NCBI RefSeq assembly: GCF_001429545.1
Contig: NZ_LMSP01000023.1
Coordinates: forward strand, 276,339 to 340,338
Direction of reading: 5' to 3'
Length of the DNA stretch: 64,000 nt
Source: Paenibacillus sp. Soil787
Lineage (GTDB): Bacteria > Bacillota > Bacilli > Paenibacillales > NBRC-103111
The notes under the pieces are model-generated. The model did no database searches. It saw nothing but the letters and a program-made list of their open reading frames with translations, and was not told the DNA's origin. This document shows, piece by piece, positions 36,434-42,599 of this stretch. A program made the position numbers and the translations under genes. Position 1 is the stretch's first letter. Every line of letters starts with the position of its first letter.

Positions 36434-37039
36434 TCAAAGCACTTGACAATACCTTAAAAAGACAGGAAACAAATAAACAGATAAGAAAGCATCCATCCAC
36501 TTTCTAAACAAAACATCCTCAACATACTTAATGCTCTTGGAATTAGTGAACATATATGTACAGAAGTTGGTATTGATCTTTTGAGAGTTGACGGTTAAAT
36601 ACTTTCTTTTATTTTGGCTGGACTTTACTTTCTTTTTACGCATCCTGTCCGCGCCTGAACCCATGCGTGAGTATTGCTTATATAAAGCTAGTTGCAGCTT
36701 CTCCAGCATCAACTTAGCAGTTCGATAATTCACTTCAAGCAAGCTTGCGAACGCTGCAATCGAATAAGTTTGGCGATCCTGGATCAATGCTCGTATAGCT
36801 TTGAACCAAATCATCAAAGGAAGCTTAGATTTATGCATAACTGTTCCAGCAGTTAATGAAATTTGCGTGCGGCATTCTTTACACTCCAATAAATTACGAG
36901 TTTTCACTAAATAAAATAAATGATTATCGCAACTCGGGCAACAAAACCCACCCGCCCACCGTCTTTTCGTCAAAAATCTTACACAATCTTCCTCCGTCTT
37001 GAGAGTGTCATCCAACGATTCATATAAATATGTATCCAT
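36434..37039 (-). CDS. Transposase-derived zinc-ribbon/HTH protein (IS1595-like N-terminal half)
   Basis: This 201-residue protein contains the front end of an IS1595/ISXO2-type transposase. It has a zinc ribbon (FCCPSCDNHLFY...LECKECRTQISLTAGTVMHKSKLPLMIWF) and a helix-turn-helix-like part (IAAFASLLEVNYRTAKLMLEKLQLAL). The catalytic ISXO2 (DDE/DDN) domain that should follow is absent; instead there are a Lys-rich stretch and about 50 residues unlike a transposase. The start is intact, with AGAGGGGG before ATG 37039. No terminal inverted repeats with target duplications were found around it. It is either a truncated element or a domesticated DNA-binding protein. Confidence 0.7.
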   Translation of the reverse strand: MDTYLYESLDDTLKTEEDCVRFLTKRRWAGGFCCPSCDNHLFYLVKTRNLLECKECRTQISLTAGTVMHKSKLPLMIWFKAIRALIQDRQTYSIAAFASLLEVNYRTAKLMLEKLQLALYKQYSRMGSGADRMRKKKVKSSQNKRKYLTVNSQKINTNFCTYMFTNSKSIKYVEDVLFRKWMDAFLSVYLFPVFLRYCQVL

Positions 37040-37531
37040 GAGTCGCCCCCTCTCAATATTAATGCAACTCTTAAATTATTTCCTATATTTGTATTATACA
37101 GAACATTTGTTTGTATGTAAAGAAATTTATTTTTCCGAGATTAATACTCTTAAATATTCATTTTCTGTAGTATCTACATTGAAAAAATCTATCAATTATC
37201 GGCTAATCAATAATTTGATAGCAGTATTTCCGGTCTCTTCCCATTTAGGGATATAGAATGTTTTAAGGCTTCTGAAGAGTTTTTGATGATTGTAGATACC
37301 ACAGAAAACATAATTTTAGAATATATCGGTTCGAGTAAAGGTATTTTTCGACAATATAGGGTTAAAGTTCTTACCATGTCGCAAATTACGAGGCTCGATA
37401 GAGGTAGTGGCTTTGGCTTTCGGCCTGTAGCTGCCGGGGCTGGTGCTGTAGTGATGGGTGTCACTTTAGTTGTGGTTGTTTCTATGGGTGTGGGTGTGGC
37501 TCTTGTGGCTGTGGCTGTGTGTGGGTAGTGT

Positions 37532-37609
37532 GGGTTTGGGTAGTGGGTTTGGGTAGTGGGTTTGGGTAGTGGGTTTGGGTAGTGGGTTTGGGTAGTGGGT
37601 TTGGGTGTG
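37532..37609 (+). repeat. 13-bp tandem repeat (GGGTTTGGGTAGT)
   Basis: Five perfect head-to-tail copies start at 37532, 37545, 37558, 37571 and 37584, followed by a partial sixth. Runs of GGG every 3-6 bases give G-quadruplex potential on the plus strand. Confidence 0.95.
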
Positions 37610-37655
37610 GCTCCTGTGGCTATGGCTATGGCTGGGGCTATCGTTGTTGGCTGCA

Positions 37656-37826
37656 GTTATGGTTATGGTTATGGTTATGGTTATGGTTATGGTTATGGTT
37701 ATGGTTATGGTTGTGGTTGTGGTTATGGTTGTGGTTATCGTTGTGGTTGTGGTTGTGGTTGTGGTTGTGGTTATCGTTGTGGTTATGGTTGTGGTTGTGG
37801 TTGTCGTTCTCGTTGTGGTTGTCGTT
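37656..37826 (+). repeat. 6-bp tandem repeat tract (GGTTAT / GGTTGT)
   Basis: About 28 hexamers, first mostly GGTTAT, then mostly GGTTGT with some GGTTATC variants. The plus strand is almost free of C and the minus strand almost free of G over about 170 bp. It looks telomere-like but lies inside the chromosome. Low-complexity frames here (for example the minus frame 37466-37900, nearly all Thr/Ile) are not regarded as genes. Confidence 0.95.
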
Positions 37827-37926
37827 GTAGATACTACAGAACTCATACGTGTAGTGGATGTAAGTCGGGAGTACTGGTGCTGGTGCTCGTACTGATACAA
37901 GTACTAGGCTGCATGGTGTAACTTAT

Positions 37927-38524: not shown

Positions 38525-40051
38525 TTACCTGCCAGGACTATCGGTTTCTACAAGCTCGATCCACTCATTGTATTCATTCTGCAGTTTAGCATATTCCTCG
38601 CGTAGTTCTTTATACTCTTCTTTGATGTTTTGAAGTTCTTTTTGTTGAGCTTCATCGTTCAAGCTTTGGTGCATTAACTCTTCTTTTTCTCTGCGGGCTT
38701 GGGCTAAAATCCGTTCTTTTTCTTCTTCATAATGTTGAGTAAGAGAAATTCGCTCTAATTGCTGCTGCTCTAGTAAGGCGTCAATTTGAGCTTGATATTG
38801 TGTAATAATGGTTGATTTTTGGTCTTCAAGCTGTTGAATAATGTTTGTTTGTCGTTCTTGGAATTCCCCGACTAGATTGCCCTTATCTTGCTCAAAACGC
38901 AGAATCTTAGCTTCTGCCTCGTCCTGGTAAAGGGAGGTGAGTGTTTCTAACTCCTCTTTGTGCTTGAATGAGAGGGTTTCTAGTTCCTCTTGATGTTGAT
39001 TTGTAATAAGATTTATTTTCTCTTTATGTTGGTTTGAAATTGTATGTATTCTCTCTTGAAGTTGGTTCGTGATTGTTTCAAGTTCCGTTTGATGTTGGAA
39101 TGTGATGTGTTCTAGTTCTTCGTGATGTTGATTAACGAGTGTTTCCTTTTCCATTTGATACTGATTCGAAAGCTTCGAGATCTCTTCTTGATGTTGCATG
39201 TTTATGATTTCTTTATCCTGCAGATGTTGATGCATGAGTGCTTCTTTGTCTTGTTGATATTGCTGGTTTAGCATTTCTTTGTCTTGTTGGTGGATTTCTG
39301 AAAGGGTCAGTTTTTCGACTCTGTGTTGTTCGTTCAGCTTTTGCAGCTGTTGTGCCTTTTGTTGTTTCTCTTGTTCGAATTGTTGCTTTGTTTGTTGGTG
39401 TTGTTGTTTTTCTTGATCTAGCAGTTGTCTTACTTGTATTTGTTGACGTTTTTCCTGCTCTAGCTGTTGTTTGACTTGTTCTAATTGTTGCGTGACTTGC
39501 TCTTGCTGCTGCTTTGCTTGTTCTTGCTGTTGTTTAGCTTGCTCTTGTTGTTGTTGTTTGGCTTGCTCTTGTTGTTGTTTGGCTTGCTCTTGCTGTTGTT
39601 TAGCTTGTTGCAGTTGTTGCCTCAATTGTTCTTGTTCTTGTTTTGCTTTCTGCACTTCTTGTTTCAATTGCTCTTGCGTTTGGTTTCCTTGCACTAGCTT
39701 AGCATTTTGTTCGCTTATGGATGTCTGTTGTTGCTCGTATTCTTGTTTCAAATCGTTAAATTTAACGATTAATTTGTCATAGGCGGCTTTGGACGCCTCT
39801 TGGTCCTTTTGGGCTTTGCTCAGTTCTTCCATAATTTCGTTCATACGGAAGCACTCATCAGCCATGTTTACTGCAGCTAGAACGGCGATTTTCTGTGAAT
39901 CTAACCGCGGATAGCCTTTTGCAATACGAAACATTTGTTCGTTCACGTATTCAGCCACTCGCTTCATGTAATTGGTGCTGGTGCTTGCTTTTAATTTGTA
40001 TTGGTGTCCATATATATCAACGGTAATCCTCGTTTTATCTTCAGCGTTCAC
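38525..40051 (-). CDS. zapA: Cell-division protein ZapA fused to a ~400-residue coiled coil
   Basis: Residues 1-80 are a clear ZapA domain (TRITVDIYGHQYKLKASTS, YVNEQMFRIAKGYPRLDSQK, VLAAVNMADECFRMNEIMEE), which bundles FtsZ filaments at midcell. ZapA is normally about 85-110 residues; this one is 508. Residues 150-200 are built from Gln-rich heptads (QAKQQQE). Residues 251-382 hold twelve exact 11-residue repeats (pattern xNQHQEELETL). The C-terminal part (about 385-508) is a further charged coiled coil. It starts with GTG 40051 behind GGGAGG. It sits between pheT and cvpA, the conserved place for zapA, so it is the resident copy. Confidence 0.9.
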   Translation of the reverse strand: MNAEDKTRITVDIYGHQYKLKASTSTNYMKRVAEYVNEQMFRIAKGYPRLDSQKIAVLAAVNMADECFRMNEIMEELSKAQKDQEASKAAYDKLIVKFNDLKQEYEQQQTSISEQNAKLVQGNQTQEQLKQEVQKAKQEQEQLRQQLQQAKQQQEQAKQQQEQAKQQQQEQAKQQQEQAKQQQEQVTQQLEQVKQQLEQEKRQQIQVRQLLDQEKQQHQQTKQQFEQEKQQKAQQLQKLNEQHRVEKLTLSEIHQQDKEMLNQQYQQDKEALMHQHLQDKEIINMQHQEEISKLSNQYQMEKETLVNQHHEELEHITFQHQTELETITNQLQERIHTISNQHKEKINLITNQHQEELETLSFKHKEELETLTSLYQDEAEAKILRFEQDKGNLVGEFQERQTNIIQQLEDQKSTIITQYQAQIDALLEQQQLERISLTQHYEEEKERILAQARREKEELMHQSLNDEAQQKELQNIKEEYKELREEYAKLQNEYNEWIELVETDSPGR

Positions 40052-40077
40052 TTGTTTATATCCTCCCTTAGATGAAA

Positions 40078-40115
40078 GGCTGGCCCTATCGAGTGTAATT
40101 TCGATAAGACCAGCC
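40078..40115 (-). terminator. Terminator or attenuator between pheT and zapA
   Basis: GGCTGGTCTTATCGA / TCGATAGGGCCAGCC is a 15-bp near-perfect stem with an 8-nt loop; a weak T-tract follows on the minus strand. Confidence 0.7.
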
Positions 40116-40145
40116 TGTTTTCCTGCAACTTAAATGAAAGTTACA

Positions 40146-42599
40146 CTATTTTCTTAACTCTGCCTCATATTGTTGTTCAAGGGTTTGCACAACTTTGGAA
40201 TGGAGCTCTGTTACTTCTTCATCCAGCAGTGTTCTCTCTGCGTGACGGTATACTAAGGCAATGGCTACGCTTTTGCGATTTGCGCCTAAACGTTCACCTG
40301 TATAGATATCGAATACTTGAATAGATTCTAACAAGTCTCCGGCAACTTCGGCGATGGTTTGCTCCATAAGACCTACTGGTACACTAGTGTTCACTACTAC
40401 AGCAAGATCGCGCCCAATGGACGGATAACGCGGCAGCAATTTATATACGATTGCATCTCCTGCAGCTTCCAAGATTGGAGAAAGTTCAACCTCTAGCACA
40501 TAAGTGTCATCAAGATCACGCTGCTGTTGGACGGTAGGATGCAGTTGGCCGATTCGACCTATGACTTGCTCACCTTCAGCTGTGTTTAAGAGAAGCTCAG
40601 CTGTTCGGCCTGGATGGAAACCATCTGGTGATGCAGATTTATAGGTAAGCCCTTTAACGCTTAGGTAGTTTACAAGGCGGCCAAAAACACCTTTGATATC
40701 ATAAAAGTCGACAGCTTCGGACTTCTGTGCCCAATGTGCTTGACGACGTTTGCCTGTCAATACGATGGAGAGAAGCAGCTTCTCTTGCGGCAAGGCTGTA
40801 AGTGTAGACTCATCTGTGATGAATACTTTGCCGATTTCGAAAATAGCCACGTCATCCATCGTACGGTTACGATTGTAGCTAACAACGTCTAGCAAATGCG
40901 GCAGCAAGCTAGTACGCAGTTGGCTGCGATCCTCGCTCATTGGCATAGCGAGCGAGATGGGCTTCGCCGCTGGGTATAGACCCGGAAGCGCAACGGTTTG
41001 ATCCGGCTGCGTGAAGGAGTAAGTGATAACTTCATGCAGTCCGCTCTGTGTAAGGAGATTCCGCGTGATGCGACGGATCGACTGCTCTTTGGTCAAGGAG
41101 CCGGGTGTCGTCACGCCGGTCATTAAGGTTGTCGGGATGTTATCGTAGCCGAAAAGACGAGCTACTTCTTCGATCAAATCGACATCCCGCGTGATGTCTC
41201 CGCGGCGGCTCGGCACATGCACGAGCAGCTTGCCTTCGCCTGCCTGCTCGAATGTAAAGTGCAGGCGCTCTATGATTTGACCCATCTCAGCCAAAGAAAG
41301 TTCAGTGCCGAGATAATTATTCACACGGTCAGCAGCTAGCTCGATGCTGACCGGCTTGTGTGAGCCTGCTACGGCTTGGACGATGCCGTCAGCGACTTGA
41401 CCTGCTGCGTACTGAGCCATTAATGCAGCAGCACGGTTTAATGCCGGAAGCACTGCTTCCGGGTTCACTTCTTTCTCGAAGCGAAGACTTGCTTCAGAGC
41501 GAAGACCTAGCTGGCGTGATGTGCGGCGTACAGAGCTGCCAGCGAACTTGGCGGATTCAAGCAGAATCCGCGTGGTGCCTTCGATCACTTCGGAGTTAGC
41601 GCCGCCCATAACACCGGCAATCCCTACCGGCTTCATGCCGTCCGTGATAAGCAGCATATGCGGCTCTAACGTACGCTCCACATCGTCGAGCGTGACGAGC
41701 TTCTCGCCAGCCTCAGCGAGACGTACATCGATGTGGCCATTGTTAAGCTGATCGGCATCGAATGCGTGAAGCGGTTGGCCGTATTCAAGCATCACAAAGT
41801 TTGTGATGTCTACGATGTTGTTGATCGGGCGGATACCAGCCGCCATCAAACGGTTCTGCATCCACAGCGGAGAAGTGCCCACGCGCACGCCTTCAATAAG
41901 GCGAGCCGCGTAGTGCGTGCATTGCTCCGTCGCAGTGATCTTCACACTGATGCGATCAGCAGCTTTCACTGCGGCTGTTCCAGCCGCCCCGCGCGCTGCT
42001 TCCGCATCAGGCAATTTGACGCCGCGTCCTAGGATCGCTGCGATCTCATAAGCAGCTCCCAGCATGCTCAAGCAATCGGAGCGGTTTGGTGTCAGGTCAA
42101 GCTCTAACACCTTGTCGTTAATAGCAAGGACGTCTAGAATTGAGCTGCCAATTTCGGTATCTTCAGGCAAAACTAGGATGCCTTCTTGAATTTCCTTCGG
42201 CAGCAGCTTATCGTTCAGACCAAGTTCTTTGGCTGAACAGATCATTCCTTGTGACTCTACGCCGCGCAGCTTAGCGCGTTTGATTTGCAATCCGCCAGGC
42301 AGCACAGCACCAATCATGGCGACAGGCACCTTTTGTCCCGCATCAATATTTTTAGCCCCGCAAACGATTTGCAAGTCTTCGCCTTGTCCGGCATCGATGA
42401 TACATACACTTAATTTATCTGCGTCTGGGTGTTTTTCGCGTGATTTGACAAATCCAACGACTACGTTCGTTACACCCTTATTGCGATCTTCCACGATATC
42501 CACTTCGATGCCGCTTCGGGTCAGTTTTTCTGCTAATTCCTCGGCTGTAAAGCCTGATACATCGACATATTCCGATAACCATTGATAAGAAACCTTCAT
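40146..42599 (-). CDS. pheT: Phenylalanyl-tRNA synthetase beta subunit
   Basis: This 817-residue subunit has an N-terminal tRNA-binding OB domain (to about 150) and the B3/B4 editing core. A B5 domain with RRGDITRDVDLIEEVARLFG and a C-terminal FDX-ACB domain (PRYPSIGRDLAVVV) complete it. Length and order are normal. AAGGAGG precedes ATG 42599, 25 bp after pheS, so both share the T-box-controlled transcript. Confidence 0.97.
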   Translation of the reverse strand: MKVSYQWLSEYVDVSGFTAEELAEKLTRSGIEVDIVEDRNKGVTNVVVGFVKSREKHPDADKLSVCIIDAGQGEDLQIVCGAKNIDAGQKVPVAMIGAVLPGGLQIKRAKLRGVESQGMICSAKELGLNDKLLPKEIQEGILVLPEDTEIGSSILDVLAINDKVLELDLTPNRSDCLSMLGAAYEIAAILGRGVKLPDAEAARGAAGTAAVKAADRISVKITATEQCTHYAARLIEGVRVGTSPLWMQNRLMAAGIRPINNIVDITNFVMLEYGQPLHAFDADQLNNGHIDVRLAEAGEKLVTLDDVERTLEPHMLLITDGMKPVGIAGVMGGANSEVIEGTTRILLESAKFAGSSVRRTSRQLGLRSEASLRFEKEVNPEAVLPALNRAAALMAQYAAGQVADGIVQAVAGSHKPVSIELAADRVNNYLGTELSLAEMGQIIERLHFTFEQAGEGKLLVHVPSRRGDITRDVDLIEEVARLFGYDNIPTTLMTGVTTPGSLTKEQSIRRITRNLLTQSGLHEVITYSFTQPDQTVALPGLYPAAKPISLAMPMSEDRSQLRTSLLPHLLDVVSYNRNRTMDDVAIFEIGKVFITDESTLTALPQEKLLLSIVLTGKRRQAHWAQKSEAVDFYDIKGVFGRLVNYLSVKGLTYKSASPDGFHPGRTAELLLNTAEGEQVIGRIGQLHPTVQQQRDLDDTYVLEVELSPILEAAGDAIVYKLLPRYPSIGRDLAVVVNTSVPVGLMEQTIAEVAGDLLESIQVFDIYTGERLGANRKSVAIALVYRHAERTLLDEEVTELHSKVVQTLEQQYEAELRK

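Follow-up and report, generated by a model that had tools for sequence, protein, structure and literature searches.

A ZapA with a long predicted coiled-coil rod and a conserved C-terminal tip in Paenibacillus and related families

Introduction

ZapA is a widespread, small FtsZ-bundling protein whose tetramer is believed to line up FtsZ filaments and to crosslink them. The stretch of DNA analyzed here (the window, 64,000 nucleotides from Paenibacillus sp. Soil787) carries a zapA gene of 508 codons, which raises the question of what such a long ZapA consists of, whether it is genuine and shared with relatives, and what its extension could do in the Z ring. An earlier note, made from the sequence of this DNA, had described a ZapA domain prolonged by about 400 residues of coiled coil. 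Below, the anatomy and evolution of this protein are well supported by gene structure, repeat periodicity, selection and comparison among relatives; from these we infer its assembly and cellular role, namely a parallel arm, a tip-to-tip clasp and long-range crosslinking of FtsZ.

Results

The window protein is a ZapA head carried on a long repetitive rod

The zapA gene (38525..40051, minus strand) is an open reading frame with a GTG start, 508 codons and a TAA stop, preceded by a ribosome-binding site, AGGGAGGA (40061..40068, minus strand), comparable to sites in other members of the genus. Its upstream neighbor is pheT (phenylalanyl-tRNA synthetase beta chain; 40146..42599, minus strand), assigned by Pfam and, in other loci, by tblastn; its downstream neighbor is cvpA (Colicin V production family, Pfam PF02674; 37964..38518, minus strand). 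Among named loci (best 80 of 301; tblastn), pheT is located upstream of zapA in 80 of 80 and cvpA downstream in 54 of 80, the 26 misses including short contigs.

Residues 1-95 (39767..40051, minus strand) form the ZapA head, for which FtsZ binding and dimerization are predicted by homology. This region was identified by the Pfam ZapA domain PF05164 (residues 9-93, 57.8 bits, E = 1.4e-15, curated cut-off 23.8), by invariant columns of 37 heads, and by a sequence match to the solved ZapA 2MMV (E = 1.5e-9). The cut-off of the NCBIfam equivalog PRK14126 (ZapA) was not reached (59.8 vs 80 bits, residues 2-84), and judged by these profiles the protein is a member of the wider Pfam ZapA family only. 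ZapA is its sole Pfam match at E <= 0.001, with neither an EzrA match (PF06160) nor a DivIVA domain at the N terminus.

The head is followed by two kinds of repeat. Residues 96-250 (39302..39766, minus strand) make up a Gln-rich section of heptads, evident in a periodicity map and in a lag-7 identity of 0.42 (0.21 shuffled). Residues 251-382 (38906..39301, minus strand) are twelve hendecads without interruption, with a lag-11 identity of 0.41 (0.09 shuffled; reached by none of 2,000 shuffles) and a lag-7 identity of 0.03. Sequence identity between units then weakens, and the hendecad phase is carried on through residues 383-470 (38642..38905, minus strand), as indicated by a hydrophobic lag-11 count of 14 for residues 383-475 (5.7 shuffled). 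Hendecads thus total ~20 units, with a hydrophobic 11-residue phase running to about residue 470. The AlphaFold2 single-chain model of the 508 amino acid protein (pTM 0.25) contains long helices, with a pLDDT of ~90 near residues 410-480, and the rod is helical apart from low-confidence breaks at 167-183 and 320-330; this model is informative on little beyond helix. These data agree with the earlier description of a genuine ZapA head on a long extension, of about 400 residues of coiled coil, and of Gln-rich heptads preceding twelve uninterrupted 11-residue repeats; the extent given for the repeats was correct for residues 251-382 and too short overall.

The hendecad units have diverged at the DNA level, with a mean nucleotide identity of 0.52 (best pair 0.76), and residues identical between units use the same codon in 150/249 cases (0.60, vs 0.53 expected from the codon usage of the tail). 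The proposal that the repeats are unlike at the codon level, and hence not a fresh slippage product, is borne out. A recent repeat expansion was ruled out because codon differences are about as expected and close relatives also have long proteins. An artefact or early stop of zapA was likewise ruled out by the open frame with its ribosome-binding site, by selection acting down to the last codons, and by the same form in other assemblies.

Long ZapAs are widespread and extremely variable in length

ZapA was found in 98 of 99 related genomes (own genome included), 94 of them by the Pfam family search, with the own genome and three further ones making up the rest; none was found in one genome that is 68% complete (G051). 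Five relatives from genus g35 (G087, G090, G091, G093, and G097) were left out, giving 93, and seven proteins were cut by contig ends, giving 86 complete proteins. These span 123-1,892 amino acids: 183-822 in the genus (n = 29), 138-1,892 in the rest of the family (n = 25), and 123-1,218 in the rest of the order (n = 32). More than 300 amino acids are present in 28/29, 21/25, and 17/32 of these groups, respectively, and in 66/86 overall. Thus, an elongated ZapA is widespread in its family, and several further families within the order also have it. Since 15 of the 32 proteins from the rest of the order have 253 amino acids or fewer, some members evidently do without a very long rod. As a side observation, the genome search with PF05164 overlooked ZapA in the own genome and in three other long-ZapA genomes, despite an hmmscan E of 1.4e-15, so that searches of this kind can undercount long ZapAs.

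The genus minimum of 183 amino acids is a broken frame in Paenibacillus sp. N3.4 (G020; L150, L041), with the remaining rod and the tip located downstream, which may be an assembly error or a real loss; the shortest genus ZapA with an unbroken frame has 303 amino acids. All of the nearest named records belong to Paenibacillus (sp. V4I3, P. alginolyticus, sp. Root444D2, P. phytorum, and sp. yr247); their heads are 89-95% identical. The named loci (best 80 of 301) gave 72 complete proteins of 183-1,740 amino acids and eight cut by contig ends. The earlier note had asked for ZapA lengths across Paenibacillaceae, and it named short close relatives or an early end of translation as evidence against its reading. 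The comparison revealed long forms in most members of the genus and family, the seven proteins with the most similar heads measure 377-541 amino acids, and purifying selection acts on the frame down to its last 45 codons. The head with its long rod is genuine and no fresh slippage product, as proposed there; it is not confined to the window organism, being widespread, and it varies greatly in length.

Outside the order, the open frames of ZapA among the class members listed comprise 81-219 amino acids, and 30 ZapA loci among the phylum matches listed have 82-129 residues counted from the domain start, these being short ZapAs without a rod, unlike the long form described here. Apparent ZapAs of 660-687 amino acids in distant members of the phylum were rejected on the basis of four of them (L225, L241, L242, and L243), each an ordinary ZapA of 87-88 residues ending an open stretch; five further genomes have ZapA frames of 248-354 and 676 amino acids. 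Separately, one ZapA from another family of the class (L132, genome G168) has an open frame of 219 amino acids that includes RERDELRR repeats and closes with ELFLLLD; it may be a similar extension that arose independently.

The rod ends in a conserved tip

The first reading of the protein was incomplete, as it overlooked its decisive feature, a conserved C-terminal tip, EYKELREEYAKLQNEYNEWIELVE (residues 479-502; 38546..38617, minus strand), recognized through sequence profiles and patterns, whose counterpart in short ZapAs is apparently their C-terminal helix. Irrespective of rod length, the C-terminal sequence is EYxKLQxEYNEWIxLV. Its core, [YFH][NDH][ED]W, is present 10-22 residues before the end in 84/86 complete ZapAs and in 0/1,720 shuffled tails; it is missing from the broken frame of G020 and from the shortest protein (G061, 123 amino acids). 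In a wider set the core was found in 121/125 ZapAs, the two additional misses being masked records, and among the complete named loci the tip was found in 69/72, the exceptions being the broken frame L150 and two proteins with masked stretches in which the tip lies farther on (L167 and L202). As Trp was part of this first pattern, and hence invariant by construction, Trp was counted with a pattern leaving its position open, which matches 80/86 proteins; Trp is present in 80/80 of those, and four of the six misses still have [ND]EW.

Pro and Gly together account for 0.2% of tip residues, 2.8-3.2% of the 30 residues preceding the tip, and 1.8% of the rod (1,319/71,657 residues), and at least one of them occurs at positions -40 to -16 in 55/121 proteins. 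The raised content ahead of the tip suggests that a flexible joint may precede it in some proteins. The four tips for which charge was computed are all acidic (net -1 to -5), and a membrane anchor at the tip is not favored on this ground. A search of the own genome for other proteins with the same tip gave zapA as the only significant match (two others, E = 2.5 and 4.1).

The rod is under purifying selection

Comparisons with the six closest relatives show purifying selection on the rod, where dN/dS is 0.12-0.21; the corresponding values are 0.04-0.10 for the head and 0-0.08 over the final 45 codons. Length nevertheless differs among seven close species including that of the window (468-541 amino acids), and since exact rod length is not conserved, the rod is no precise ruler. 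In the same six comparisons, 9/9 hendecad-zone indels have lengths divisible by 11, whereas of those in the heptad zone 3/4 are of 7 residues and one of 29; some of these counts represent a single event counted repeatedly. In a set of 52 close pairs, a length divisible by 11 was found for 43/90 indels in hendecad context (about 8 by chance) and one divisible by 7 for 26/42 in heptad context (6 by chance), the remaining 47/90 and 16/42 being of other lengths. Pairs and species share ancestry, so that indel and arrangement counts are non-independent; in addition, slippage of unit-sized repeats would favor the same lengths, and unit-sized indels alone are therefore no proof of selection.

Likeness of the tip to the end of short ZapAs

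A profile of 84 tips was run on 50 short ZapAs from outside the order (20 hand-picked class members and the 30 phylum loci among the matches listed, no random draw). The best score fell within the C-terminal helix in 48/50 proteins, and for 42 of those 48 it was reached by <=1% of shuffles. The consensus of these matches, DELFKLQEEYDELVKLLE, aligns with the tip's EEYAKLQNEYNEWIELVE. A score of at least 5.0 was obtained for 28/50 short ZapAs vs 11/38,437 interior rod windows, and so the likeness exceeds general coiled-coil resemblance. The tips themselves score far above the short ZapAs (median 61.9, minimum 40.3), 12/50 of which score below 0.

Based on these alignments, the rod appears to separate the head from the segment that ends ordinary ZapAs. 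As this kind of helix joins dimers in solved tetramers, the rod is likely to have arisen between the head and the clasp. A clasp-like sequence was also detected directly after the head in 3/11 long or related proteins scanned (scores 7.6-12.5), which makes a duplication of the segment possible instead of an insertion. The position of Trp in the tip is mostly Leu in short ZapAs, which could mean a new partner.

In the predicted fold of a relative of 149 amino acids, the ZapA head leads into a long helix, and a short break then sets off the tip helix; in a Foldseek search the solved fold closest to this model is 2MMV (E = 4.1e-6), other ZapAs following at E = 0.001-0.015.

Order of the repeat zones along the rod

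Ninety proteins contain both kinds of repeat. Heptads lie on the head side and hendecads on the tip side in 24/24 such proteins of the genus, the order is reversed, with hendecads on the head side, in 9/10 proteins of family f10, and over all 90 neither order is dominant (42/90). The match of heptad and hendecad zones when the rod is laid end for end is 0.47, vs 0.57 by rotation, and lies under expectation in 68/90. With the caution that the species are related, this favors parallel, in-register arms, and the rod is best read as a parallel, in-register coiled-coil arm. Hendecads with large core residues may favor more than two chains, according to the available portion of PMC9858780, so the rod may have more than two.

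Discussion

A possible long-reach crosslinker of FtsZ

The explanation that we prefer, with a probability of roughly 0.45, is that long ZapA consists of an FtsZ-binding head, a parallel arm, and a dimer-dimer clasp at the tip, and crosslinks FtsZ at long range. A linking of FtsZ filaments over a distance, in the sense of the earlier note, would be compatible with the observations. According to this model, a coiled coil grew out behind the head, ahead of the short C-terminal segment with which ordinary ZapAs help join two dimers. The head dimer would bind FtsZ, and both chains would exit as a parallel, in-register rod of ~435 residues, which at 0.15 nm per residue gives ~65 nm by simple arithmetic. 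At the far end of the rod, the ancestral clasp would couple two dimers tip to tip into a giant dumbbell. By the same arithmetic, FtsZ filaments could be held up to ~130 nm apart, or one rod length apart under full overlap, and the longest ZapA would have an arm of ~270 nm. Rod length would be readily changed, preferentially in steps that keep the helix phase.

The pieces of this model have precedents in the available parts of a study of Klebsiella ZapA (PMC12216130), in which four C-terminal helices hold the tetramer together, the coiled-coil mutant I83E forms dimers with only sparse binding to FtsZ, and ZapA catches FtsZ by the N-terminal Phe of FtsZ, a counterpart Phe being proposed for Gram-positives. 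The frame of the own FtsZ starts MTHMFEFD; read from the second Met it becomes MFEFD, with Phe at position 4, and the protein would thus have the proposed hook Phe if translation starts at that Met.

A wider and more tentative proposal, which we consider possible but somewhat doubtful, is that the Z ring of Paenibacillus and its relatives is built with a giant, evolvable boom. Rods of ~10-270 nm, with the ancestral tetramer segment clasped tip to tip, would join filaments over distances near the Z-ring width or across the lumen, and length would change largely in whole heptads or hendecads. If true, nature has provided a length series for probing filament spacing in cytokinesis. A spacer stretched many-fold with both ends nearly fixed would offer natural variants to probe spacing, reach, or tethering in the Z ring, and suggests that models of ZapA drawn from E. 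coli and B. subtilis may not cover a large Gram-positive group.

Alternative explanations

EzrA is a long, helical, membrane-anchored Z-ring regulator of Firmicutes that lacks a ZapA head. Long ZapA is likewise long and helical and would act on the same ring, with the ZapA head as the difference. In one unlikely alternative, the head would sit on FtsZ and the Trp-bearing tip on some other partner (a divisome protein, the nucleoid, or a cell-wall enzyme complex), the rod serving as a boom. It would fit a tip as constrained as the head (dN/dS 0-0.08 vs 0.04-0.10), with Trp fixed in 80/80, and a possible EzrA vacancy, as the best EzrA match among the 99 genomes of the order, with short or long ZapA alike, reaches 71.9 bits vs >100 bits in 57/101 class genomes, all 57 outside the order (at most 12 candidates were scored per genome). 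This vacancy is blurred, however, because 25 of the 99 have a match at E <= 0.001 and 11 exceed the curated cut-off of 39.6 bits, mostly with partial matches, and many class genomes outside the order are likewise without a strong match. The order may be without EzrA, a lead that amounts to one event in one lineage. The tip itself also speaks against such tethering, since it can be aligned in register with the C-terminal helix of ordinary ZapAs and resembles it, and the acidity of the four computed tips is unlike that of a typical membrane-binding helix.

An improbable arrangement is full antiparallel overlap, in which dimers would pair along the entire rod, with a head spacing of one rod length and each tip beside the opposite head. 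This would account for tip conservation, but it would put unlike zones side by side, given the uniform order in the genus and its reverse in f10; the argument is strongest for these two groups, as over all 90 proteins neither order prevails.

The least probable reading is tolerated drift, with only head and tip mattering and the rod a functionless repeat expansion, as could be suspected from lengths that differ greatly among close species (468-541 amino acids in seven, 303-822 in the unbroken genus proteins, 123-1,892 in all), from the short proteins in 15/32 of the rest of the order, and from low-complexity Gln-rich stretches, but which fits poorly with a rod dN/dS of 0.12-0.21, a Pro and Gly content of only 1.8%, an excess of phase-keeping indels (although slippage could yield them), and >300 amino acids in 28/29 genus and 21/25 other family proteins.

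Comparison with known systems

Our preferred reading of long ZapA as a crosslinker with its own arm can be set beside several described systems. In E. coli ZapA-ZapB, a coiled-coil extension of the Z-ring layer is attached to ZapA; there the coiled coil is the separate protein ZapB, whereas here it is part of ZapA itself. Short ZapAs of solved structure (Geobacillus, PDB 2MMV; E. coli, 4P1M; K. pneumoniae, 9ISJ and 9ISK) have the head in common with the long form, and their C-terminal helix resembles its tip. ZapB is named in the accessible part of PMC12754632. The nearest analogue is FilP/Scy of Streptomyces, described in the available text of PMC9858780 as a division-protein head with a heptad/hendecad extension and family lengths ranging from <200 to >1,000. 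Its head is DivIVA-like, unlike the ZapA head found here, and the word ZapA is missing from the main text of PMC9858780 as far as that text was available.

We found no description of a long ZapA in the literature on ZapA, Paenibacillus, FtsZ, coiled coils, or hendecads, which is weak evidence of novelty as subscription papers were mostly outside reach. As far as sequence can tell, a long-rod ZapA with a conserved tip appears to be a new variant of ZapA.

Other features of the locus

A hairpin with a 16-bp stem (40077-40116, minus strand) lies between pheT and zapA, directly 5' of the zapA ribosome-binding site, and may be a terminator, an attenuator, or a processing site. Its fold z-score is -6.7, with 0/200 shuffles equally stable, and the stem is nearly constant across 14 aligned members of the genus. 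The exact pattern occurs once in the own genome and in 54/247 loci, several loci belonging to the same genome. The only Rfam match at this site scores 14.1 bits, under the gathering score of 50. Downstream of cvpA, the window contains simple G/T-rich tandem arrays with periods of 6 and 13 (37485-37828). A short ORF (36437-37039, minus strand) has as its sole Pfam match an IS1595-type transposase zinc ribbon, and is possibly a remnant.
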